Made by a program: the position numbers and the translations under genes. Positions 1 to 10,077 of a stretch of DNA of 10,077 bases are shown one piece after another. This DNA comes from an uncultured Coriobacteriaceae bacterium. Its GTDB lineage: Bacteria; Actinomycetota; Coriobacteriia; Coriobacteriales; Atopobiaceae. Each line of letters starts with the position of its first letter. Position 1 is the stretch's first letter. The notes under the pieces are model-generated. The model searched no databases and was not told the origin of the DNA. It saw only the letters and a list, made by a program, of their open reading frames with translations. The stretch covers positions 1-10,077 of the forward strand of contig URWR01000046.1 in the NCBI GenBank assembly GCA_900551595.1, read 5' to 3'.

Positions 1-3000
1 CGTTGGAGCCTTGCTTGTTGGCATGGGGTATGCCGACGATGGTGAAGCAGCTTCTCCGGGCTCTTTTCATATTCATGGTGACGCGGTGGACATTTTTCCT
101 GCTCAGGCTACCTCACCAGTGCGCATTGAGTTTTTTGGCGATGAGGTTGACCGTGTTCGCCGTATGGTGTCGTCAACGGGTCAGACGATTGGTGAGCTGG
201 AATCGGTTACCGTGTCGCCTTGTCGTGAGCTTGCGCTTACTGACGAAACAGTTGGCCGCGCGCGAGAAGCACTTGAAGCGTCGGCGCGCTTGGATGGTCG
301 CATTGCACAGGATCTTGAGCTTATCGAAGCGCGTTCATCTGCGCCTATTATCGACCGCTATCTTCCTGAGCTCTATGGATCAACGGATTCTCCGCTTGCA
401 CACATCTGCAAAGAAACACTTGTCGTACTCGCAGAGCCTCGAGCTTTGTTTGATGATTGTTTGCGAGCTTACGATGAGCTGGAAGCTACGGCACAGGCTG
501 CTCATGCATCATTAGAGGGTTTGTATATTCAGCCGCGTGACATGGATTTTGGCGCTCAGCAACGTTTTTCGTTCTCTTCCATCATGCGGGCAGGCACCTC
601 TGCGGTAACAAAGCTTGAAGTGCGTCAACCCGATCTGGCAGGCTCTGATGCCAAATTCATTGGACGTGTCCGTCAGTTTGTATCCAACAACATGGCAGTG
701 GCTTTTGCTGTACCCGATCGCGGTGCTCGCGCTTCGCTGGAACTGAGTTTTGGCGATGAGGGTATTCCGTTTTGCGAATCACTTGCAAATGATCCTGCCA
801 ACACTATTCCGTTTGAAGACTCCCATGCAACAAGTGACGTGGAACCACTTCAGCCAGGTGTTGTTACATTTTTTGATGCAGCGGTTCCCGCTGGTGTTGT
901 GCTGCCGGCTTCCAGATTGGCCATTCTCTCGGTGGGAGATCTTACGCAGCGCATGGCGCGCAAACGTGCTCGTCGCATTGACCCAACCAAGATTACGTTC
1001 CCCTTTAAACCAGGTGATTACGTAGTACACGCCACCCATGGCATCGCTTTGTTTGCCGACATTGTTCGCCAAGAGGTGGCAGGGCGAGAGCGCGATTACT
1101 TCCTTTTGGAATACGCTGGTGGCGATAAGCTCTTTGTGCCGCTTGAACAGGTCGATCGTCTCAGCCGTTATGTTGGGCCTGATGGCTCTTCTCCGCGTCT
1201 GACACGTCTCAATACAGCCGACTGGTCTCGCGTTACCGGCAAGGCGCGTCGCTCGGCGAAACGGCTTGCGTTTGACCTCGTGGATCTTTATACCCGGCGT
1301 TCTGCTGTGGCAGGCCATGCCTTTGCCCCTGACACGCCCGCCCAAGCAGATATGGAGGCGAGTTTTCCCTATGAGCTCACCTCTGACCAAGCCGGCGCAA
1401 TTGCCGACATCAAGGCAGATATGGAAGCTCCTCGCCCCATGGATCGCTTGCTCTGTGGCGATGTGGGCTTTGGCAAGACTGAGGTTGCTCTGCGAGCAGC
1501 GTTTAAGTGCGTTGCCGATGGTCGTCAGGTGATGGTGCTGTGTCCTACAACCATTTTGGCCGAGCAGCACTACCAGACGTTTTTCTCGCGCTTCTCGCCG
1601 TTTGATGTGGATGTGCGCGTCATGTCGCGTTTTGTAACGCCTGCACGACAGCGAAAAGCCTTAGAAGATTTTGCATCGGGCGAGGCACAAGTGCTCATTG
1701 GTACTCACCGTCTGCTTTCGAGCGATGTTAACCCGCATGATCTTGGTCTTGTGATTATCGACGAAGAGCAGCGCTTTGGCGTGCAGCATAAAGAGCAGCT
1801 CAAGAATATGCGTGAGCAGGTGGACGTGCTCACGCTGTCGGCGACACCCATTCCGCGTACGATGCAGATGGCTATGAGCGGTGTGCGCGATATGAGTCTC
1901 ATCATGACGCCTCCTCCGGGCAGAAAGCCGGTTGAGGTACATGTGGGCGAATGGGATCCCGACGTGGTATCCGATGCTATTCGCACAGAGTTAGCGCGCA
2001 ACGGTCAGGTGTACTACGTTTCGAACCGCGTACGCAGCATCGATGAGGCAGCGGCACGTGTTGCCGAAGCAGCTCCGGAGGCGCGTGTTGGCGTAGCACA
2101 CGGAAAGATGAGCGCTCGTGAGGTAGAAGACGTCATGATGGCGTTTGAAGCTCACGAGATCGATGTTCTTGTCGCTACAACCATTATTGAGAGCGGCATT
2201 GATAATCCACGGACAAATACGCTCGTAATAGAAGATTCTCAGCGCCTTGGTTTGGCGCAGCTCTATCAGTTGAAAGGTCGTGTGGGACGTGGAAGAACTC
2301 AGGCGTATGCCTACTTCATGTTCCCGCCCGATCAGCCGCTTACTCCAGAGGCTACCGAGCGTCTTACCGCTATTAACGAAAATCAGGATTTGGGCAGCGG
2401 TATGCGCATTGCCATGCGAGATCTCGAAATCCGTGGTGCCGGATCGCTGGTAGGTGCCGAGCAGCATGGCAACCTTTCCGGTGTTGGTTTTGACCTGTTT
2501 ACCCAGATGCTTGGTACTGCTGTTGCAGAGGCGCGCGGTGAAATTGCCGATGCTGAGCAACCAGAAGTTACTATCAATCTGCCAGCAGACTTCTATCTGG
2601 CAGAAGAATATGTGCCCGATGTTGACCGTCGTGTAATGGCATATCGCCGCCTGGCAACTGCGGCGGAGTTGGCCGACGTGGACGAGCTGGAACATGACCT
2701 TATCGAGCGCTATGGTGCACTGCCTCTGGCAGGTCGCAACCTCATGGATCGCGCTCGTATGCGTATTCGAGCTGGACGTTTGGGAGTTACCTCAATCTCG
2801 CTTACCGACGGGCGTCTTATCTATATGGGAATTGAAGTGCCGCGTGCAGCTGGGCTTAAGCTTCGCGAGCAGGGTGCTATTGTGTATCCCAAGACTCGCA
2901 AGCTGGCATATCCTTTCAGGCTTGCTCGTGCGAGTGCTACAAGTGCATCTCGTCGCGGTGGAAGTGCTTCTCGCCGTGCTTCTCAGGAGCGCAGTGCTGA

Positions 3001-3064
3001 GGAACTTTTGCCTGTGGCGCTTGGTGTGTTGGAACAAGTGGGCGGCGACGACGAAACAGAATAA
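1..3064 (+). CDS. mfd: Transcription-repair coupling factor Mfd (5'-truncated by window edge)
   Basis: Mfd is an ATP-dependent DNA translocase that removes RNA polymerase stalled at lesions and recruits UvrA for nucleotide excision repair. The frame is open to the left edge (first full codon at base 2), so 1020 residues are visible; against a usual ~1150 I estimate 120-180 N-terminal residues are missing. In order, numbering from the first visible codon: a UvrB-like segment with VRIEFFGDEVD (about 40-52); the CarD-like RNA-polymerase-interaction domain starting GDYVVHATHGIA (338-349); Walker A GDVGFGKT (486-493); the Walker B box DEEQ (587-590) followed by RFG; motif VI RVGRGR (760-765); and the C-terminal TRCF domain starting near INLPADFYL (about 857). 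The C-terminus carries a Ser/Arg-rich stretch. It ends in TAA whose last bases belong to the AAGGAG ribosome site of the next gene, 11 bp away, indicating co-transcription. Family assignment is very secure. Confidence 0.98.
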   Translation, partial: VGALLVGMGYADDGEAASPGSFHIHGDAVDIFPAQATSPVRIEFFGDEVDRVRRMVSSTGQTIGELESVTVSPCRELALTDETVGRAREALEASARLDGRIAQDLELIEARSSAPIIDRYLPELYGSTDSPLAHICKETLVVLAEPRALFDDCLRAYDELEATAQAAHASLEGLYIQPRDMDFGAQQRFSFSSIMRAGTSAVTKLEVRQPDLAGSDAKFIGRVRQFVSNNMAVAFAVPDRGARASLELSFGDEGIPFCESLANDPANTIPFEDSHATSDVEPLQPGVVTFFDAAVPAGVVLPASRLAILSVGDLTQRMARKRARRIDPTKITFPFKPGDYVVHATHGIALFADIVRQEVAGRERDYFLLEYAGGDKLFVPLEQVDRLSRYVGPDGSSPRLTRLNTADWSRVTGKARRSAKRLAFDLVDLYTRRSAVAGHAFAPDTPAQADMEASFPYELTSDQAGAIADIKADMEAPRPMDRLLCGDVGFGKTEVALRAAFKCVADGRQVMVLCPTTILAEQHYQTFFSRFSPFDVDVRVMSRFVTPARQRKALEDFASGEAQVLIGTHRLLSSDVNPHDLGLVIIDEEQRFGVQHKEQLKNMREQVDVLTLSATPIPRTMQMAMSGVRDMSLIMTPPPGRKPVEVHVGEWDPDVVSDAIRTELARNGQVYYVSNRVRSIDEAAARVAEAAPEARVGVAHGKMSAREVEDVMMAFEAHEIDVLVATTIIESGIDNPRTNTLVIEDSQRLGLAQLYQLKGRVGRGRTQAYAYFMFPPDQPLTPEATERLTAINENQDLGSGMRIAMRDLEIRGAGSLVGAEQHGNLSGVGFDLFTQMLGTAVAEARGEIADAEQPEVTINLPADFYLAEEYVPDVDRRVMAYRRLATAAELADVDELEHDLIERYGALPLAGRNLMDRARMRIRAGRLGVTSISLTDGRLIYMGIEVPRAAGLKLREQGAIVYPKTRKLAYPFRLARASATSASRRGGSASRRASQERSAEELLPVALGVLEQVGGDDETE

Positions 3065-3075
3065 GGAGACGGTAT

Positions 3076-4098
3076 ATGACAGAACCTATTTCCGCTGAAG
3101 AACTTGCTATTCTCAACCGCGCTCCGCATCTGAAGTGGGCCGTTATTGGATGTGGCGTTATCGCAAATGAGATGGCAGATGCTCTTGCTCGTGTTGGTCG
3201 CCATATTGATGGTGTGGCAAATCGTACGCTTGAGAAGGCACAAGCATTTGCCAACCGCCATGATGTACCCAGGGTATACACCTCCTACCAGGAGCTTTAT
3301 GACGATCCATCCATTGATGCGGTGTATATAACAACGCCACACAACACGCACGCAGAGTATATTCGTGGGGCACTCAATGCAGGCAAGCACGTCTTGTGCG
3401 AGAAGGCCATTACGCTCAATACCGAAGAACTTGATGAAGGAATGGCGCTTGCGCGTGAGCGCGGACTGGTCCTTATGGATGCCTGCACTATTTTGCATAT
3501 GCCCCTGTATAAAATGCTTCGCCGAAAGCTTGAGGCGGGAGATTTTGGACAAGTGCATCTTGCGCAGGTGAACTTTGGTAGCTTCCGTGAATATGACCCT
3601 AACATTCGCTTCTTTAATCCCGAGTTGGCCGGTGGCGCCATGCTCGATATCGGTGTATATGCCTTTACGCTTGCACGCACATTCTTAAAGAGCAAGCCGA
3701 CCGAGTACAGCTCGCTTGAGAACCCCGCATTTACCGGAGTGGATGAGGAAAGCGTCATTATTATGCGCAATGCCGAGCATCAGCTGGCAGCGTTCTCGCT
3801 CACCCTTCATGCCAAGCAACCCAAGCGCTATGTTATCGCCACCGATAAGGGCTATCTCGAAGGTATGGAGTATCCGCGTGCGGATGAGGCGACGTTTACC
3901 TGGTGGCCCGAGAACCGTCAGGAAACATTCCGTGCAGGCGAGCGCAGGCTGGCCCTTAACTATGCCTTGGCTGACCTTGAGGCTGCAGTGGCTGGCGAGG
4001 CGGAGGCACAGCGCTGTGCTGAATGGAGTCATGATGTGATTGAGCTCATGACTGACGTGCGTCGTGAGTGGGGCTTTTTATATCCCGAAGAGCGATAA
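3076..4098 (+). CDS. Gfo/Idh/MocA-family NAD(P)-dependent oxidoreductase
   Basis: A 340-residue protein with the two-domain layout of the Gfo/Idh/MocA family, cytoplasmic enzymes that oxidise or reduce sugars, inositols and diols with NAD(P). The Rossmann fold opens with AVIGCGVIA (glycines at 25 and 27). ITTPHNTHAEY follows, then CEKAITLN with the family's catalytic-type lysine at 110; the usual proline after EK is alanine here. The second domain holds GGAMLDIGVY (186-195). Tyrosine stands where many sugar dehydrogenases have histidine, as in the dihydrodiol dehydrogenase/glucose-fructose oxidoreductase branch. Start ATG 3076 has AAGGAG at 3063-3068, 7 bases upstream. It sits 11 bp after mfd and 10 bp before mazG, so it is probably in the same transcript. 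No neighbour indicates the substrate, and none is assigned. The family is certain; the specificity is unknown. Confidence 0.93.
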   Translation: MTEPISAEELAILNRAPHLKWAVIGCGVIANEMADALARVGRHIDGVANRTLEKAQAFANRHDVPRVYTSYQELYDDPSIDAVYITTPHNTHAEYIRGALNAGKHVLCEKAITLNTEELDEGMALARERGLVLMDACTILHMPLYKMLRRKLEAGDFGQVHLAQVNFGSFREYDPNIRFFNPELAGGAMLDIGVYAFTLARTFLKSKPTEYSSLENPAFTGVDEESVIIMRNAEHQLAAFSLTLHAKQPKRYVIATDKGYLEGMEYPRADEATFTWWPENRQETFRAGERRLALNYALADLEAAVAGEAEAQRCAEWSHDVIELMTDVRREWGFLYPEER

Positions 4099-4108
4099 GA
4101 GGCAAACG

Positions 4109-4966
4109 GTGAACGACGAGAAACTGGTTGCTGCTGCAGACGCTCAGAGTGCCTCTCGCCCTGGTGCGCCGGGTACGCAGGATGATTTTGAGCGTCTTGC
4201 TCGTACGATATGGCGCCTGCGCCAGCAGGATGGCTGTCCGTGGGATCGTGAGCAGACGCACGAGTCTATTCGCAAGAACATGATCGAAGAAGCGTATGAA
4301 ACGGCCGAGGCGATAGATGAGGGCAATTCGGCACATTTATGCGAAGAGCTTGGCGATGTGCTGATGCAGGTGCTTCTCCATGCCCAAATTGCCGATGATG
4401 CTGGTGAATTTACGCTTGCTGATGTATGCCGTGGGCTTAACGAGAAGCTCGTACGCAGACATCCTCATGTCTTCAATGACAAGACTCAGGCAGACTCAGC
4501 AGACGAAGTGCTTGATATTTGGGAAAACGTCAAGAGCGACGAACGTGAGAAGGCCTCCGAACAAGAAGGCAAACCCGTAGGTCTGCTCGACAGTGTTCCT
4601 CATGCGTTGCCGGCGTTAATGCAATGCCAGAAGATCTCTAAGCGTGCTGCGCGTGTTGGATTTGAGTGGGAAACCGTTGAGGACGTCTGGGAAAAGGTCG
4701 AGGAAGAACGCCAGGAGTTTCTTGCTGAAGAACCCGGTACGCCTGCGGCGGAGCTTGAGTTTGGCGACATGCTCTTTGCCCTTGCCAACGTGGCGCGCTT
4801 GGAAGGAATCGATGCTGAAGAGGCGCTCGAGCGTTCCTGTGAGAAGTTCCGCTCCCGCTGGAGCATCATGGAAGAAATGGCGCGCGAACAGGAAGAAGAG
4901 CTTTCCGAGATGGGTACTGACAAGCTCAACGAGTTGTGGAATTGCGTCAAGCAAGAGCATGAGTAA
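4109..4966 (+). CDS. mazG: Nucleoside triphosphate pyrophosphohydrolase MazG
   Basis: A 285-residue all-alpha NTP pyrophosphatase that hydrolyses (d)NTPs to NMP and pyrophosphate, a nucleotide-pool cleaning role in the cytoplasm. Two tandem MazG domains are visible, as in E. coli MazG (263 aa). The first carries CPWDREQTHESI, the metal-binding EEAYE (60-64) and EELGD (79-83), then RRHPHVF. The second has EEERQE (198-203) and ELEFGD (215-220), and FEWETVEDVWEKV lies between them. I chose GTG 4109 because AAGAGG (4097-4102) sits 6 bases upstream and the preceding gene ends at 4098. An in-frame GTG at 4064 would add 15 residues that overlap the oxidoreductase and look unrelated to the family. 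Location just after mfd is typical of Gram-positive bacteria. Family assignment is secure; the start is likely. Confidence 0.95.
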   Translation: MNDEKLVAAADAQSASRPGAPGTQDDFERLARTIWRLRQQDGCPWDREQTHESIRKNMIEEAYETAEAIDEGNSAHLCEELGDVLMQVLLHAQIADDAGEFTLADVCRGLNEKLVRRHPHVFNDKTQADSADEVLDIWENVKSDEREKASEQEGKPVGLLDSVPHALPALMQCQKISKRAARVGFEWETVEDVWEKVEEERQEFLAEEPGTPAAELEFGDMLFALANVARLEGIDAEEALERSCEKFRSRWSIMEEMAREQEEELSEMGTDKLNELWNCVKQEHE

Positions 4967-4984
4967 CACGTTTTCTGACTGCTC

Positions 4985-4993
4985 TGCTATAAC
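4985..4993 (+). promoter_or_regulatory. Candidate extended -10 promoter in the mazG - ftsB spacer
   Basis: TGC followed by TATAAC matches an extended -10 element (TGn plus a 5/6 match to TATAAT). No convincing -35 is seen 16-18 bp upstream, as expected for extended -10 promoters. The -10 also lies in a small inverted repeat, CTATA-acc-TATAG (4987-4999). It would give the ftsB-ppx pair its own transcript with a leader of about 90 nt containing the hairpin at 5024-5050. The call rests on motif appearance alone. Confidence 0.35.
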
Positions 4994-5023
4994 CTATAGA
5001 GATAAGGTCGCTACGAAATAAGT

Positions 5024-5050
5024 GGAGCAGCTCCCAAGAGGAGTTGCTCC
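5024..5050 (+). promoter_or_regulatory. Strong RNA hairpin in the mazG - ftsB spacer
   Basis: GGAGCAGCTCC (5024-5034) pairs with GGAGTTGCTCC (5040-5050): an 11-bp stem with one G-U pair and a 5-base loop (CAAGA). It sits 57 bp after the mazG stop and 42 bp before the ftsB start. The following sequence, GAAAACGATTTGATCC, has no run of T, so a classical intrinsic terminator is unlikely. It may be an attenuating or processing structure or a weak terminator. The pairing is directly visible; the role is inferred. Confidence 0.5.
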
Positions 5051-5092
5051 GAAAACGATTTGATCCCGAAAACGAAGCAGAATCGAACTCAT

Positions 5093-5653
5093 ATGGGTGA
5101 ATACAGCAGCGCGCGACAACAACGTTTATCGCGTTACGGAACAAATAGGGCTGGGCGAGCGCGTACCAATGATCGTGTGTCGTCCCGAAGGAATACCCCT
5201 CAATCAAAGCTGAATGGGTTTTTCTCGACCCTGCGTGACCGTCTGCCCGAGCCTCCAAGCAGTAAAGCGGGAAGAATCGGTCTGATTGTTGTTGCAGCAA
5301 TAGCAGTGTTGCTGTTGTTCTTATATGGCCCGGTTCGCGAATACTACGTGTCTTGGCGTGTAGGTCAGATTTATTCTGCTGAGCTTGCTGAGCTCAATGA
5401 AGACAATGAAGAGCTCAAAAGTGAGGTCAATCGTCTGCAATCGCGCGAGGGTATCGAAGATGAAGCGCGTAAGCGCGGGTATGTTTCCGAAGGTGAGACG
5501 GCTGTAACTGTTGAAGGTCTGGACGAATCTGAAACCTCAGATGGCGAGACTGGCGACACTTCGGATGCTTCTGATGAAAGCAACAACCCTTGGTACATAT
5601 CGGTGTTAGACGTGTTGTTTGGTTTTGACAAGACGTCTGTGAGCGTGTCGTAG
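5093..5653 (+). CDS. ftsB: FtsB/DivIC-family septum formation initiator (divisome membrane protein)
   Basis: A 186-residue bitopic membrane protein of the FtsB/DivIC family, which bridges FtsL and FtsQ/DivIB in the cell-division complex. It has a basic, Arg/Ser-rich cytoplasmic N-terminus (1-58) and one transmembrane helix (62-80, starting IGLIVVAAIAV). An acidic coiled coil with regularly spaced leucines follows (about 93-118), then the family's closing motif GIEDEARKRGYVSEGE (120-135). Beyond this is a Ser/Asp/Glu-rich tail (about 140-163) and a hydrophobic end, PWYISVLDVLFGF (166-178). ATG 5093 is the first ATG, but no good ribosome site precedes it; an in-frame TTG at 5060 would add 11 residues and is also poorly supported. 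The position between mazG and ppx matches actinobacterial gene order (Rv1024 in Mycobacterium tuberculosis). Family secure, start moderately so; the name DivIC would be equally apt. Confidence 0.88.
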   Translation: MGEYSSARQQRLSRYGTNRAGRARTNDRVSSRRNTPQSKLNGFFSTLRDRLPEPPSSKAGRIGLIVVAAIAVLLLFLYGPVREYYVSWRVGQIYSAELAELNEDNEELKSEVNRLQSREGIEDEARKRGYVSEGETAVTVEGLDESETSDGETGDTSDASDESNNPWYISVLDVLFGFDKTSVSVS

Positions 5654-5663
5654 GGGAGCTTGT

Positions 5664-6743
5664 ATGATTCGTGTAGCTTCAATTGATATTGGTACCGTTT
5701 CTGTTCGTCTTGCCGTTGCAGATGTGGAAAACGGAAAGGTGCTTCGATGTGCCAAACAGTCGCGTATTTGCGATTTGGGAGAGGGGCTTGCAAGCTCGGG
5801 CAAGCTTTCTCAGGCAGCATGCGAACGCGTTGTGGCTACCGTTGATGATTATCTTTCTGCGGCAAAGGGTGCAGGTGCCACACGGGCATGCTGTACGCTC
5901 ACCAGTGCTGCTCGCGATGCATCCAACTCCAATGATCTGATCTGTGAGCTTGAGAATCGCGGACTTCATCCCGAGGTAATACCAGGTAGAGTTGAGGGCT
6001 CGCTTACCTTTTTAGGTGTTGCACGCGATTTTCCAGGGCAGCGCATTGTCGTTGCAGACAATGGCGGTGGATCCACCGAACTTGCGGTGGGGTCGCTTGC
6101 TGTCTCTGTGGAAGGCGTGCCAAATAATCTGAACCTGGAGTTTGTGCGTTCGTCCGATGTTGGGTGCAGACGTGTTACCGAACAGTGTTTGCCGGGAGAT
6201 GGACCCGCAACAGAAGCGATGCTTGCTGACGCGCGTTCTTTTTGCGATACGCGTTTCGAGGCGGATATTCCATGGCATAAAGATGGCTCTCCGCACAGCT
6301 CACAGGATGGAACAGCTGCTCTTGCGGATTATCGTGGTGATAACCCGTCCTGTGGCGTTGCTCGTCCCACGCGTTTGGTAGCGGTTGGCGGCACGGTTAC
6401 TTCGTTGGTGGCCATCGATGCAGCCCTTGATCCTTATGATTCTTCTTTTGTCCACCTCCATGAGCTCACAGCTCAACAAGTGGATGGACTGATCGACATG
6501 CTTGCTCAGCTGAATGTAGAAGAGCGCCGCCATATTATTGGACTGCAAGCCAAACGTGCTCCGGTTATTCTTGCTGGCGCCGTGGCCATTCGAGAGCTTA
6601 TGCGCACGACGGGTTTTGACAGACTTACGGTGAGTGAAAGCGACCTGCTGTTTGGTCTTTCGGCTGTAGCTGCAGCAGCCGCAGGAGATGCCGAAGGTGT
6701 TTCTCCGGTGAACTGGCTTCCCCAATTAACATGTCTGTCCTAA
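5664..6743 (+). CDS. ppx: Exopolyphosphatase, Ppx/GppA family
   Basis: A 359-residue member of the Ppx/GppA phosphatase family (sugar kinase/Hsp70/actin fold), which releases phosphate from the end of polyphosphate or hydrolyses pppGpp to ppGpp. Visible motifs are the phosphate-1 loop IDIGTVSVRL (7-16; families usually have DxGSNS), TSAARDA (80-86), a glutamate at 111 in GRVEGSLTFLGV that aligns with the catalytic-glutamate region, the phosphate-2 loop DNGGGSTEL (132-140), the adenosine-type loop VGGTVTSL (241-248) and the C-terminal ERRHIIGL...RAPVILAGA. A hydrophilic insertion near 198-236 (HKDGSPHSSQDG) makes it longer than the usual ~310-320 residues of short actinobacterial Ppx proteins. 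ATG 5664 has GGGGAG (5653-5658) overlapping the ftsB stop, so the two genes are co-transcribed. Polyphosphate versus pppGpp preference cannot be told from the sequence. Confidence 0.93.
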   Translation: MIRVASIDIGTVSVRLAVADVENGKVLRCAKQSRICDLGEGLASSGKLSQAACERVVATVDDYLSAAKGAGATRACCTLTSAARDASNSNDLICELENRGLHPEVIPGRVEGSLTFLGVARDFPGQRIVVADNGGGSTELAVGSLAVSVEGVPNNLNLEFVRSSDVGCRRVTEQCLPGDGPATEAMLADARSFCDTRFEADIPWHKDGSPHSSQDGTAALADYRGDNPSCGVARPTRLVAVGGTVTSLVAIDAALDPYDSSFVHLHELTAQQVDGLIDMLAQLNVEERRHIIGLQAKRAPVILAGAVAIRELMRTTGFDRLTVSESDLLFGLSAVAAAAAGDAEGVSPVNWLPQLTCLS

Positions 6744-6757
6744 ATTGCGCAATAACT

Positions 6758-6811
6758 TGCTATAGTAATGCGTGTTATTGGTGTGCGACGATTCGAATAA
6801 GCTAGTACAAT
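6758..6811 (+). promoter_or_regulatory. Candidate promoter region for tRNA-Leu
   Basis: Two -10-like elements lie in the 85-bp gap between ppx and the tRNA. One is an extended -10, TGC-TATAGT (6758-6766). The other is TACAAT (6806-6811), which would start transcription about 10 bases before the tRNA. Neither has a clear TTGACA-like -35 at 16-18 bp; TGCGAC at 6784-6789 is the best partner for the second. The choice between them is uncertain. Confidence 0.3.
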
Positions 6812-6828
6812 AGTTGCACCTTGTTCGT

Positions 6829-6914
6829 GGGGGCGTGGCGGAATTGGCAGACGCAGGGGATTTAAAATCCTTGGCCGTTTAGGCTTGTGGGTTCGAGTCC
6901 CACCGCCCCTACCA
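6829..6914 (+). tRNA. tRNA-Leu (anticodon UAA), CCA encoded
   Basis: An 86-base class II tRNA reading UUA/UUG. The acceptor strand GGGGGCG (6829-6835) pairs with CGCCCCT (6904-6910), with a G-U closing pair. Discriminator A is at 6911 and genomically encoded CCA at 6912-6914. The D-arm contains AATTGGCAGACGC. The anticodon stem GGGGA/TCCTT encloses the loop TTTAAAA (6861-6867), with anticodon TAA at 6863-6865. A long variable arm, GGCCGTTTAGGC, is the leucine/serine/tyrosine class mark. The T-arm GTGGG-TTCGAGT-CCCAC is canonical. No terminator with a T-run follows. Confidence 0.97.
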
Positions 6915-6973
6915 AACCTTCGGCAGTTTGAAGCGTCGAGGATAGCGTTTCTCCCTTTCAAATGTGATGAGTT

Positions 6974-7030
6974 GTTGTCCTTATAGTTGTCTATAAACTG
7001 TGCATGTACAACTTGTATACTGGTTGTCCT
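6974..7030 (+). repeat. Cluster of GTTGTC(C/T) direct repeats upstream of the fusion gene
   Basis: GTTGTCCT occurs exactly at 6974-6981 and again at 7023-7030, with a one-base variant GTTGTCT at 6986-6992. An inverted relative, GTACAAC (GTTGTAC on the other strand), lies at 7006-7012. Four GTTGT-type elements in 57 bp, just before a gene whose product has a DNA-binding domain, suggest a protein-binding region. The repeats are short, so chance is not excluded. Confidence 0.4.
6981..7020. promoter_or_regulatory. Candidate operator: palindromes upstream of the GntR-transketolase gene
   Basis: Several perfect inverted repeats are packed into 40 bp: TTATAG-ttgt-CTATAA (6981-6996), TACAA-c-TTGTA (7007-7017), and inside or beside it TGTACA (7005-7010) and GTATAC (7015-7020). 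HutC-type GntR regulators generally bind short AT-rich palindromes with GT and AC at the outer ends and TA near the centre, which GTATAC and TTGTATAC resemble. The cluster lies about 115-155 bp before the start codon and overlaps the best promoter candidate. Autoregulation by the fusion's own winged-helix domain is an inference. Confidence 0.4.
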
Positions 7031-7041
7031 GTACCTACTAT
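7013..7041 (+). promoter_or_regulatory. Candidate promoter for the GntR-transketolase operon
   Basis: TTGTAT (7013-7018) and TACTAT (7036-7041) are spaced by exactly 17 bp. The match to consensus is modest (3/6 and 4/6). An alternative -10 is TATACT at 7016-7021. The -35 lies within the TACAACTTGTA palindrome, an arrangement suited to repression. It would leave a leader of about 90 bases. Confidence 0.3.
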
Positions 7042-7092
7042 GACCGAATGATCTTACATGCCCTTACGGCTGTGTTTCCGAGGGGCATTTCA

Positions 7093-7111
7093 TGCAGGCT
7101 TCAGGCCTGTA
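7093..7111 (+). promoter_or_regulatory. Small hairpin in the leader of the fusion gene
   Basis: TGCAGGC (7093-7099) pairs with GCCTGTA (7105-7111), giving seven pairs including one G-U and a five-base loop TTCAG. It lies 24 bases before ATG 7136 and just upstream of the ribosome site. A role in translation is possible but not shown; such small hairpins also occur by chance. Confidence 0.3.
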
Positions 7112-7125
7112 GTTGCGGTCCAACA

Positions 7126-7133
7126 GGGAGGGG
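7126..7133 (+). promoter_or_regulatory. Ribosome binding site deciding the start of the fusion gene
   Basis: GGGAGGGG lies 2 bases before ATG 7136; counting from its GGGAG core the spacing is about 5. The upstream in-frame ATG 7058 has no purine-rich site before it. This supports 7136 as the start and rules against the 26 extra residues. Confidence 0.65.
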
Positions 7134-7135
7134 AC

Positions 7136-9007
7136 ATGACCGATTGCAACGAACAGGGCAGTTCTGCCACGTTTCGTGAGCATATGATTCCAGCGTCTGA
7201 TATTGATACAAGCATTTGGATGGGATTTGGCGGCACGAGCTCGTCTCGTGGCAACACTGTCTTTCCGTATCGGAAAAGCGGAGCAGCTCATAGAACATCC
7301 AGCACTTCGCTCGATATTGCTGATGAGCAAGAGGTAGCACTCGATAGATCCTCTGGCAGGCCTTTGCATGAACAGCTTGCAGAGGTGCTGCAAGAGAGGA
7401 TTCGTTCCCATATGTGGGAAGCGGGTATGCGCATCCCTTCTGAGCATGAGCTCTCTCAACGCTTTGGTTTGGCACGCGGTACCGTTAGGCGCGCGATAAG
7501 CATACTGGTAGATGAGGGAATGCTGGTGCAAGAGCGCGGTAAAGGCACCTTTGTGTCTGATCCCGGCATATGGCATACCTCGGGACGTCGGCTGCTCTCA
7601 TTTGCAGCATCCTTGCATGAACAGGGCAAAGAGTTTGTCACCCATGTTTTGGACGAAAGAGTGTTGCCTGCCTCAGAGGCTGTAGCGCGCGAGTTGGACA
7701 TAGCGCCAGGCTCACCTGCGCTCTTTTTACGGCGTGTGCGCGATGTGGGCGGGGAAAGTGTTGTATGCCAGGAGAGCTGGCTCAGCATGGACGCATGTCC
7801 CGATATTGAGAATGCCGATTTCCTCCATGAGTCGGCCTTTGATGCTGTTGAGCGGTGTTCAGGAAAGCATATTGCCGATTCGTGTATGCGCTACACTGCG
7901 CGGGCGGCAGGCAAAGAGCATGCTGCATATTTGCGATGCGATGCACATGACCCCATGCTCGTACTCGAGCAGCTCATTAGTCTCGAAGATGGAACACCTA
8001 TAGAGTGGAGCCTTACGTGGTTGCGCGATAACCTCTCTATTCTGGGAAGTTCTGTGCAGGATTGCAGACTTGGAGCAGCGCTTGTTTCCACGGACGTGAC
8101 TATCAATCATCAAGATATTCCTGAGTCGAAATCAGGGCGTTTGTCTCGTCGTGAATTGGAATTGCGCGCGTTAGATATTCGCAGTAAGGCCGTTGGATTC
8201 GCGTTGGACGATCCAGCGCATCCGTACCACCTCGGCGGGAGTCTTTCTGCAGCAGAGATTTTTGCGGTACTGCTCAACGAAGTGATGCATACCGGCAAAG
8301 ATGGCACTCCTTGGGATAATCGCGACCGACTGGTACTTTCAAAAGCGCATGCAGCGCTGGCTTTGTATCCAGCCCTTGAGCAAGCGGGATATGTTTCGGA
8401 AGAAGATATGTCTCGAGGTTTATATGGATCTGAGGCAGTGTTGTTCAAGCATCCACGGCGTGATCTCTGCCGGGGCATAGAGCTTTCTGGTGGAAGTCTT
8501 GGTTTAGGACCAGCTCATGCCTGTGGTCTTGTCATGGCAAATCGTCGTTTCGGTCGTACCGGCCGTGTTTTCTGTATCCTGGGCGACGGTGAGTGCAATG
8601 AAGGCTCGGTTTGGGAGTCTGTGGCATTTGCAGGGCACAATCGCTTGGGTGAGCTTACCTTCATTGTGGATGTAAACGGACTGCAGCTTGATGGTCCAAC
8701 AGCGGACATTTTGGGACCTACCCCTGATGGCACTTCCTCGCTTGCAAAAACATTTGCCTCATTTGGATGGGATGTTGTTGAGGTGGATGGGCATGATGTA
8801 ATTGCTCTGCGTGACGCTCTTATCCCAACACCTTTCTCTCCCGCCCATACGGCACCACGTGTTGTGTTGGCTCATACCGTTAAGGGCAAAGGCTTGTCAT
8901 TTATGGAAGACCGCGTGGAATGGCACGACAACCTCATGACTGAGGAAGAGCGTATGCGTGTTGCCATGGAGTTTGATGCACGTAAGGAGGCGATTCTCCA
9001 TGAGTAA
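7136..9007 (+). CDS. Fusion: GntR/HutC-type regulator (wHTH + UTRA) joined to transketolase N-terminal subunit
   Basis: A 623-residue protein with two halves in one uninterrupted frame. Residues 1-70 are a polar extension of no recognised family. Residues 72-142 form a GntR winged helix: RPLHEQLAEVLQERI, then MRIPSEHELSQRFGLARGTV with the recognition helix, ending RGKGTFVSDP. About 150-300 is a HutC-type UTRA effector domain (LLSFAASLHEQGKEF; ...EWSLTWLRDN). About 339-623 is the thiamine-diphosphate-binding transketolase subunit. It has HLGGSLSAAEIF (His365), SKAHAAL (His405; family usually SKGH), KHP (His439), GSLGLG, the diphosphate/Mg motif GDGE starting at 483 with its partner Asn514 (VNGLQLDG), and KGKGLSFMEDRVEWH (His597). 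The cofactor and catalytic-type residues look intact, so both an enzyme and a DNA-binding role are possible. Transketolase moves two-carbon ketol units between sugar phosphates; UTRA domains often sense sugar phosphates, amino acids or other small metabolites. It overlaps the next gene by 8 bp. Domain calls are secure; coupling of the two functions is inferred. Confidence 0.92.
   Translation: MTDCNEQGSSATFREHMIPASDIDTSIWMGFGGTSSSRGNTVFPYRKSGAAHRTSSTSLDIADEQEVALDRSSGRPLHEQLAEVLQERIRSHMWEAGMRIPSEHELSQRFGLARGTVRRAISILVDEGMLVQERGKGTFVSDPGIWHTSGRRLLSFAASLHEQGKEFVTHVLDERVLPASEAVARELDIAPGSPALFLRRVRDVGGESVVCQESWLSMDACPDIENADFLHESAFDAVERCSGKHIADSCMRYTARAAGKEHAAYLRCDAHDPMLVLEQLISLEDGTPIEWSLTWLRDNLSILGSSVQDCRLGAALVSTDVTINHQDIPESKSGRLSRRELELRALDIRSKAVGFALDDPAHPYHLGGSLSAAEIFAVLLNEVMHTGKDGTPWDNRDRLVLSKAHAALALYPALEQAGYVSEEDMSRGLYGSEAVLFKHPRRDLCRGIELSGGSLGLGPAHACGLVMANRRFGRTGRVFCILGDGECNEGSVWESVAFAGHNRLGELTFIVDVNGLQLDGPTADILGPTPDGTSSLAKTFASFGWDVVEVDGHDVIALRDALIPTPFSPAHTAPRVVLAHTVKGKGLSFMEDRVEWHDNLMTEEERMRVAMEFDARKEAILHE
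8984..8990 (+). promoter_or_regulatory. Ribosome binding site of the transketolase C-subunit gene
   Basis: AAGGAGG, a near-perfect Shine-Dalgarno sequence, lies 9 bases before ATG 9000 and inside the end of the fusion gene. It fixes the start at 9000 rather than the upstream in-frame ATG 8958, and indicates translational coupling of the two subunits. Confidence 0.8.
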
Positions 9008-10049
9008 GCACAATGAGGCGCTCCTTTGTTCGGGTGCAACATGTGATGCTGAGCTTGCACAGCGTTTGGCGCGTATGGATCCCAAAGAGGTGTTTGGCGC
9101 TGCAATGTCATACCTCGCAGATCATGATGAGCTCTTGAGTATTGTTGTCTCAGACTATGGACGCAGATTATCGCTGGACCCCGTGAGGCAAGCACACCCT
9201 GAGATGGTCGTTCAGTGTGGTATTGCTGAGCAGAGCCAGGTGGGGATGGGCGCTGCTATGGCGCTGGAGGGACTTCATGTAATTGCTCCAGCATACGCGT
9301 GCTTTCTCGCTGCTCGAGCAATGGACCAGGTACGTGTAGCGATGGGAATCATGAAGGCTCCCTTAGTGCTTGTTGGTCTGGGGCCGGGATACGCATCGGG
9401 TATTTTAGGTGCAAGCCATATGGCGCTTGATGATGTGGCGTGTATGCGAGCTGTTCCAGATGTTGATGTGGTTTGTCCGGCTGATAATGCCGAGCTTTGG
9501 TGCTGTCTGATTGATCTTGGTCTGCATCCACGTCCTTGTTACATACGTATGCCTACAGCGCACGCAGGAGCGCTTATACAGCCATCATGTGACGGTCTTG
9601 TGCGCGGCAAAGCACACGAGCTGCACGTAGGGGCGACGTCGAACAGCATGCCTGCTCAGGACAGCCCTCAAGGTGTTGCCATTCTTGCTACCGGAAGTAT
9701 TGCACTTGAAGCGTTGGCTGCAGCTGAGGAGCTGCAGGCGCGAGGTGTGTCCTGTAGAGTGATAGAAGTCCCATGGGTTGTTCCTTTTGATGAAGCAATA
9801 GTTCAGACACTTGCCGGATCGCGTTTAGTCGTAACGGTTGAAGAACATCGCAGTGTCGGTGGTTTGGGCAGTGTTGTTGCAGAGCATCTCGTGAGGGCTA
9901 CAAAAGCCGATAGCGCAATTCCTCGGCTGCTTTCTCTGGGTGCTCCTGACGATATTTTTGAAGCCGACGATAGGGATTGTTTGCTTGCGCGTGCAGGTCT
10001 TACGGCTGAAGGGATTGCTGGAGCAATTCAGACGGCTTTAGACTCATAA
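9000..10049 (+). CDS. Transketolase C-terminal subunit (pyrimidine-binding and C-terminal domains)
   Basis: A 349-residue partner of the preceding protein. In split transketolases this subunit supplies the pyrimidine-binding (PP-type) domain and the C-terminal domain, so the active site forms between the two chains. Visible features: VVSDYGRRLSLDPVRQAHP; CGIAEQ with Glu77, the glutamate that activates the thiamine aminopyrimidine ring; APAYACFLAARAMDQVR; GASHMALDD with His140, corresponding to the substrate-binding histidine; and PADNAELW and YIRMP. The C-terminal domain begins at GVAILATGSIALEAL and includes VVTVEEHRSVGGLGSVVAEHL. It is somewhat longer than the usual ~310 residues because of a linker around 200-220. 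The start ATG 9000 overlaps the fusion's stop codon and has AAGGAGG upstream. No terminator is visible in the 28 bases that remain, so the operon may continue beyond the window. Confidence 0.95.
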   Translation: MSKHNEALLCSGATCDAELAQRLARMDPKEVFGAAMSYLADHDELLSIVVSDYGRRLSLDPVRQAHPEMVVQCGIAEQSQVGMGAAMALEGLHVIAPAYACFLAARAMDQVRVAMGIMKAPLVLVGLGPGYASGILGASHMALDDVACMRAVPDVDVVCPADNAELWCCLIDLGLHPRPCYIRMPTAHAGALIQPSCDGLVRGKAHELHVGATSNSMPAQDSPQGVAILATGSIALEALAAAEELQARGVSCRVIEVPWVVPFDEAIVQTLAGSRLVVTVEEHRSVGGLGSVVAEHLVRATKADSAIPRLLSLGAPDDIFEADDRDCLLARAGLTAEGIAGAIQTALDS

Positions 10050-10077
10050 CGAAAAGAAAAAACGGGTCGAGTACAAA

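Follow-up and report, generated by a model that had tools for sequence, protein, structure and literature searches.

One open reading frame in the genome of an uncultured Coriobacteriaceae bacterium (GenBank assembly GCA_900551595.1, contig URWR01000046.1) reads as a GntR/HutC repressor joined to the catalytic N-subunit of a split transketolase, which raises the questions of whether such a protein exists and of what its two halves might do for each other. The stretch analysed, referred to here as the window, comprises 10,077 nucleotides (positions 1 to 10,077 of the contig), and coordinates given without a locus name are positions in it.

Architecture of the fusion gene and its locus

The fusion gene lies on the plus strand at 7136..9007 and encodes 623 aa in a single open frame, as delimited by Pfam domains, start-site context and a database protein. 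An ATG-started frame covering it runs from 7058 to 9007 (649-aa numbering); ATG 7136, preceded by GGGAGGGG, was favoured over ATG 7058 as the most likely start, and it is also where P0001 begins, a database protein of 623 aa with 4 differences relative to the window. Pfam assigned residues 104-166 (649-aa numbering) to the GntR winged helix-turn-helix (HTH) domain (PF00392; family E 1.3e-15; 7367..7555, plus strand), residues 188-323 to the UTRA effector domain (PF07702; E 8.9e-30; 7619..8026, plus strand) and residues 390-632 to Transketolase_N, the thiamine diphosphate (ThDP) binding domain of the N-subunit (PF00456; E 1.5e-27; 8225..8953, plus strand), confirming the first-pass annotation, which had described an intact winged helix, a UTRA domain and a transketolase N-subunit in one frame. 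A flexible linker, residues 302-332 (8039..8131, plus strand), was predicted with pLDDT < 50. An AlphaFold2 model of the whole protein (mean pLDDT 76) had folded domains and low-confidence stretches at 1-63, 143-152 and 302-332; at its pTM of 0.51, how the domains lie relative to one another is not reliable. Foldseek searches with this model returned the split transketolase 6yak (E 2.0e-23, 38% identity), which was the best structural match of the N-subunit domain, and NagR/YvoA (E 1.4e-19).

The transketolase C-subunit (9000..10049, plus strand; PF02779, Transket_pyr, and PF02780, Transketolase_C) follows directly, its start overlapping the fusion stop by 8 bp, and a C-subunit frame adjoins the fusion in 26/26 fused loci, that of L163 being broken off at the contig end. 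Upstream of the fusion gene stands a tRNA-Leu (6829-6914). The gene order in the window, named by Pfam, is a Gfo/Idh/MocA oxidoreductase, mazG, a divIC-like gene, ppx/gppA, the tRNA-Leu, the fusion and the C-subunit; the opening long frame reads by eye, outside the family search, like what we take to be mfd. No sugar pathway was seen among the fusion's neighbours in the window, which are housekeeping genes (mazG, divIC and ppx by Pfam). At the same locus in relatives, a single frame encodes a GDSL-like lipase domain with a MazG pyrophosphohydrolase after it (L139:3133-5343 and L165:3350-5458). Separately, L137:12047-14259 and its relatives carry, downstream and on the opposite strand, two adjacent conserved genes that have no Pfam match.

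Spread of the fusion

Database searching with the GntR-UTRA part alone as query, which reaches proteins sharing short words with it, returned 68 proteins, 64 of which also carry PF00456 and are annotated with GntR, UTRA and Transketolase_N. The remaining four were P0035, which lacks PF00456, and three weak matches of another GntR type. An organism or family name was borne by 5/64 fusion proteins (Olsenella or Atopobiaceae), and one NCBI protein name among the matches already describes both halves. Full-length matches were found in 2/396 sampled genomes of the phylum (no more than three candidates scored per genome), and within the family to which one of these two belongs 25/140 genomes carried the fusion in one frame with no internal stop, in one case (G397) on a contig of 1,543,805 bp. 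A further 11/140 had an N-subunit match that was very similar but came without the regulator part (10 of the 11 loci were examined), and in one, G435, the regulator and enzyme halves were in different frames. At that locus (L160) the two halves overlap. The fusion was retained among proteins 46-86% identical to that of the window (27 rows), no relatives were found on viral contigs, and in a scan of the genome contigs with the fusion the best 80 of 101 relatives each matched the transketolase part only, earliest from residue 344. The GntR/HutC-UTRA-transketolase-N fusion is thus real and conserved in a family of mouth and gut bacteria.

Two mundane explanations named in the first-pass annotation were tested and rejected. 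Against an assembly or sequencing error stand 25 genomes with the fusion in frame and 64 protein clusters, which come from several sources. Separate translation from an internal start fails since the candidate in-frame starts of the linker, which the window has too (Shine-Dalgarno match of 4 of 6 at best), vary in place and strength across the 26 loci; different loci do not have their linker start codons in common, and the linker of L142 has none.

DNA- and ligand-binding residues of the regulator half

The regulator has the order expected of the GntR/HutC family, a winged HTH followed by UTRA (Pfam, Foldseek), together with the NagR-type phosphate arginines. According to PMC4333415, from which residue roles were taken, the phosphate-binding UTRA residues of NagR are those at the positions occupied here by Arg200, Arg202, Glu213 and Glu290 (NagR Arg133, Arg135, Glu145 and Glu222). 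All four were kept in 26/26 fused loci and in 53/53 rows of an alignment (A2) of the window with 52 of 65 strong database matches. The Ser165 position held Ser in 19 and Thr in 7 of the 26 fused loci, and the Tyr167 position Phe in 25 and Val in L150. Since the phosphate-binding arginines are invariant, a sugar phosphate is the likely effector of the fusion's UTRA domain. Of the first-pass interpretation, this supports a UTRA pocket of the sugar-phosphate type; sensing of the attached enzyme's own substrate or product would be a further hypothesis.

In the HTH domain, NagR Arg48 (Arg114 in the window) was kept in 26/26 fused loci and Gly69 in 24/26. The Arg38 position was Arg in 0/26, with H, A or S instead, which counts against the autoregulation proposed below. 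Arg38 and Arg48 of NagR read two neighbouring guanines, so that loss of the first and retention of the second would fit a half-site with a single G (TGT).

Stand-alone GntR-UTRA relatives were found at 19 loci (52.7-58.8% identical). These regulators head same-strand series of genes for a triosephosphate-isomerase-like protein, YjbQ/UPF0047, a galactitol-type PTS permease and a class II aldolase, which occur together in L183; gene clusters were common to over twenty loci. With such PTS and aldolase neighbours, it is reasonable to expect the phosphate of a sugar or polyol as effector of this regulator type. The slot behind ppx is occupied by a stand-alone GntR-UTRA gene in 10 loci (L165, L168, L173, L179-L183, L230, L231) and by the fusion in others.

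A putative operator upstream of the fusion

An array of TGT half-sites at 6985..7034 (plus strand; TGT at 6988, 6999, 7005, 7014, 7025 and 7030) was taken as the putative operator, on the basis of enrichment upstream of fused loci. Counts cover 20 non-redundant fused loci, each with its 150 bp of upstream sequence. TGT-N8-TGT (half-sites 11 bp apart) occurred 28 times, against a mean of 1.64 and a maximum of 7 in 1000 dinucleotide shuffles, which overstate the significance somewhat because these sequences had also supplied the pattern. For TGTACA the count was 17 where 1.18 were expected, and the 7 unfused upstreams had none. When dyads were counted without bias in these 20 upstreams, TGT-N8-TGT and TGTACA came out on top with 14 sequences each, the best dyad in 150 shuffles reaching 9. 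By locus, TGT-N8-TGT was present upstream in 14/20 fused loci, 1/7 unfused loci (enzyme without regulator) and 0/20 paralogous transketolases; the unfused L167 has none. Among stand-alone regulators, whose upstreams were cut from mechanical frame starts, it lay within 200 bp in 10/24 close relatives and 0/15 more distant ones. Counting against the operator reading are the 14/24 close stand-alone regulators without the pattern and the 7 TGT-N8-TGT on the antisense strand of the fused upstreams, also above the sense-strand shuffle mean. Six of the 20 fused upstreams lack an exact TGT-N8-TGT, four of them forming one clade with its own conserved 24-mer.

Across the whole window TGT-N8-TGT occurs 7 times on the plus strand, two of them in the array, and once on the minus strand, and the triple TGT-N8-TGT-N(1-3)-TGT occurs twice, both times in the array. 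Two clade-specific 24-mers (no more than 3 mismatches) were each found once per genome, always before the fusion (2/2 and 7/7 genomes). A looser consensus gave 11 matches in 25 genomes, against 10 for a reversed control pattern, so that only the places of the matches are telling, not their number: 8 lay in fusion promoters, 1 belonged to a stand-alone regulator, 1 fell in a frame that reads by eye like what is presumably pheT, and 1 was not assigned. A wider regulon was therefore rejected, the 24-mers hitting their own promoter only and the looser consensus not exceeding its control in number. A promoter scan of 6740-7140 found no sigma-70-like promoter. The occurrence of the array at fused loci, its rarity where the regulator is missing and the unique 24-mers at the fusion point to its being an operator for autoregulation.

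Selection on the fused domains

dN/dS was calculated per domain by the Nei-Gojobori method (own script) for 12 locus pairs, of which L143/L144 is almost identical and several have dS near saturation. Values were low in HTH, UTRA and the transketolase N-subunit (TK_N) and mostly higher in the linker and N-terminus, substitution in the linker being usually faster than in the domains. For L137/L140, dN and dS were 0.000/0.65 in HTH, 0.008/0.55 in UTRA, 0.026/0.80 in TK_N and 0.252/0.72 in the linker. The contrast is weak in some pairs, such as L129/L132 (dN/dS of 0.30 in HTH, 0.43 in UTRA, 0.45 in the linker and 0.29 in TK_N). By this sequence measure, all three domains are under purifying selection.

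Active site and substrate pocket of the transketolase half

Active-site positions were matched by motif to those of yeast transketolase. At the places of yeast's four catalytic histidines, of the GDG motif, of the following glutamate and of the cofactor asparagine, the residues were all kept in 25/26 fused loci; the exception is L151. In alignment A2, His365, His405 and His597 were invariant and His439 nearly so (Glu in P0050). The fusion loci thus have the ThDP motif, the catalytic histidines and an adjacent C-subunit with its catalytic glutamate that mark a split transketolase, L151 again excepted in its N-subunit residues. The GIAEQ glutamate of the C-subunit was kept, and the Arg528 position was Arg, in 25/25 fused loci.

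The substrate pocket differs from the canonical one. A DYGRRL motif replaces the DADL-type motif of the C-subunit in 24/25 fused loci, 10/10 unfused syntenic loci and 0/20 paralogues; the Asp477 position is not Asp in 25/25 fused, 10/10 unfused and 8/20 paralogous copies, and the His469 position is His in 1/25 fused loci (L150), so that the fused C-subunits lack the canonical acceptor site. Changes at transketolase Asp477 alter the acceptor range and Arg528 binds substrate phosphate, as stated in the engineering study PMC5573996. Given this divergent pocket, the canonical pentose-phosphate reaction is not to be assumed.

Fusion as the cell's only transketolase was considered and rejected, since each of 26 genomes (the 25 with the fusion and G435) has 2 to 4 PF00456 matches, leaving 1 to 3 besides the fused copy, which scores lowest in each. 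Twenty further copies fetched from 9 genomes were all split, with the C-subunit adjacent. From its sequence, the enzyme half of the fusion is a paralogue that has diverged and whose substrate pocket is altered. Another split type (SDSRGSAS, GALGMSH), also without an Asp477 equivalent, was observed at L190, L195, L197, L198, L201 and L203 and clusters in the tree with Actinomycetes and Proteobacteria copies.

A fused locus with a changed active site

At L151 (genome G433, 7452-9254), six of nine tested N-subunit positions are changed, namely the four histidines and two GDG residues, aspartate included; Gly483 (the first GDG glycine), Glu489 and Asn514 are kept. Its C-subunit lacks DYGRRL and keeps the catalytic glutamate. 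The locus retains a 600-codon frame, two TGT-N8-TGT sites and all tested regulator residues except Arg38, which is absent in all fused loci. Against L141, dN/dS was 0.16-0.28 in HTH, UTRA, linker and TK_N, at dS of 1.0 to 2.1, near saturation. The best database match was identical over the searched region and represented 2 member sequences, located on 63 contigs of three sources, which argues against an error of a single assembly. L151 suggests that the regulator can outlast loss of catalysis. It is a candidate natural pseudo-enzyme regulator.

Evolutionary history

In trees of joined N- and C-subunits (16 outgroups chosen from scan relatives, 15 of which entered), fused and unfused syntenic copies formed one group apart from the paralogues (support 100), within which fell the unfused, DYGRRL-bearing L167. 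The main unfused clade was nested among fused rows (90/82 under a mixture model, not starred). A first tree without an outgroup had suggested two regulator losses; with outgroup and mixture model only loss in the larger unfused clade was favoured, and the order at the base was not settled for L152, L150, L167 and the window. In the regulator tree, fused L150 had a long branch and was placed with stand-alone regulators (support 77); it may represent a second, independent fusion. The simplest reading of these trees would be one fusion and at least one regulator loss, the regulator probably having been lost secondarily in the sister lineage.

Proposed operation and alternatives

We consider it rather probable that the locus is a self-contained operon under autoregulation, whose GntR/HutC repressor, made as one protein with the N-subunit of a non-canonical split transketolase, would act on the putative operator upstream. 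The two HTH domains of a dimeric N-subunit would sit on the TGT array and keep the promoter shut; UTRA would bind, through its two invariant arginines, a sugar phosphate of the pathway (a ketose or polyol phosphate); the ligand-bound form would release DNA as in NagR, so that fusion and C-subunit would be made together; and the alpha2beta2 enzyme (split transketolase being alpha2beta2 according to the title of 6yak) would consume the pathway intermediate, whereupon repression would return. Covalent fusion would fix regulator and N-subunit at 1:1. The sequence fits activation as well as repression. Against this account count the failure to find a sigma-70-like promoter at 6740-7140 and the presence of the enzyme at loci that have no regulator, by which the enzyme does not depend on the fusion. 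If the account holds, a single protein would form a natural feedback circuit, being the operon's regulator and also a catalytic subunit of what the operon makes.

A less probable alternative, still worth weighing, is that the halves are covalently joined and functionally independent, a stop codon having been lost between adjacent regulator and enzyme genes and no information passing between them. The variable, predicted disordered linker agrees with this, as do stand-alone regulators of the same type in the same chromosomal slot at 10 loci and the enzyme with its C-subunit at 10/10 unfused syntenic loci examined. Independence sits poorly, however, with retention of the fusion across the 46-86% identity range and with split frames in only one genome (G435) among the loci examined.

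A bolder extension of the autoregulated operon, to which we give a slightly smaller chance again, is that the enzyme's state is itself the signal: substrate occupancy or C-subunit assembly would alter DNA binding through the dimeric N-subunit, and the transketolase of G433 would be a catalytically dead sensor in a working repressor. Stronger still, and improbable, is the reading of the transketolase half as a sensor in the first place, with binding of thiamine diphosphate, substrate or C-subunit setting DNA binding and catalysis secondary. The divergent pocket (DYGRRL and the changed Asp477 position) and the loss of active-site residues at L151, where HTH, UTRA, array and open frame persist, speak for it; against it, the nine tested positions are intact in 25/26 fused loci, the GIAEQ glutamate is universal among fused C-subunits, and unfused copies share the divergent pocket, which is therefore not tied to the regulator. 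Least probable by far is an artefact or separate products (assembly error, internal start or proteolysis), to which the frames of G435 and weak in-frame start candidates in most linkers lend something, outweighed by the breadth of genomes, protein clusters and sources and by the missing conserved internal start.

Three natural forms are available for comparison: the fused gene, the enzyme on its own (a form that mostly lacks the array as well) and the fused gene with a broken active site. The locus also flags a split transketolase subfamily with an unusual acceptor site in human mouth and gut bacteria.

Comparison with known systems

The first-pass annotation had proposed a domain search to learn how widely the architecture is conserved; the searches found the full fusion in 64/68 protein matches and 25/140 family genomes. 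Beyond it, the present analysis adds a likely autoregulatory operator, a divergent substrate pocket, a probable regulator loss in a sister lineage and a branch whose apparently dead enzyme half keeps its regulator. No description of a GntR/UTRA-transketolase fusion was found among the titles and abstract openings listed in searches of open-licence papers, and the passages of PMC5882156 on companion domains of GntR regulators do not name one.

NagR/YvoA of Bacillus subtilis and DasR resemble the fusion in HTH and UTRA fold and match it at the NagR Arg133, Arg135, Glu145, Glu222 and Arg48 positions; they have no enzyme attached, whereas the fusion has its Arg38 position replaced and a putative operator of tandem TGT half-sites. 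The split transketolase of Carboxydothermus hydrogenoformans (6yak/6yaj) has separate N- and C-subunits of the same fold as the fusion's enzyme and no regulator, and its C-subunit carries GEDG and DADLSKSTKT in place of the G-x-L-G (mostly) and DYGRRL of the fusion loci. MocR-type GntR regulators, in which a GntR HTH is fused to an aminotransferase-like effector domain, likewise join the HTH to an enzyme-like domain; the fusion has no aminotransferase domain by Pfam and, unlike MocR, comprises a full HTH-UTRA regulator and, after it, one subunit of an enzyme that requires a second. PutA, BirA and NadR each combine in one polypeptide an enzyme and a repressor of its own pathway, but have different folds, whereas the present protein is a three-domain fusion with a split, oligomeric enzyme.
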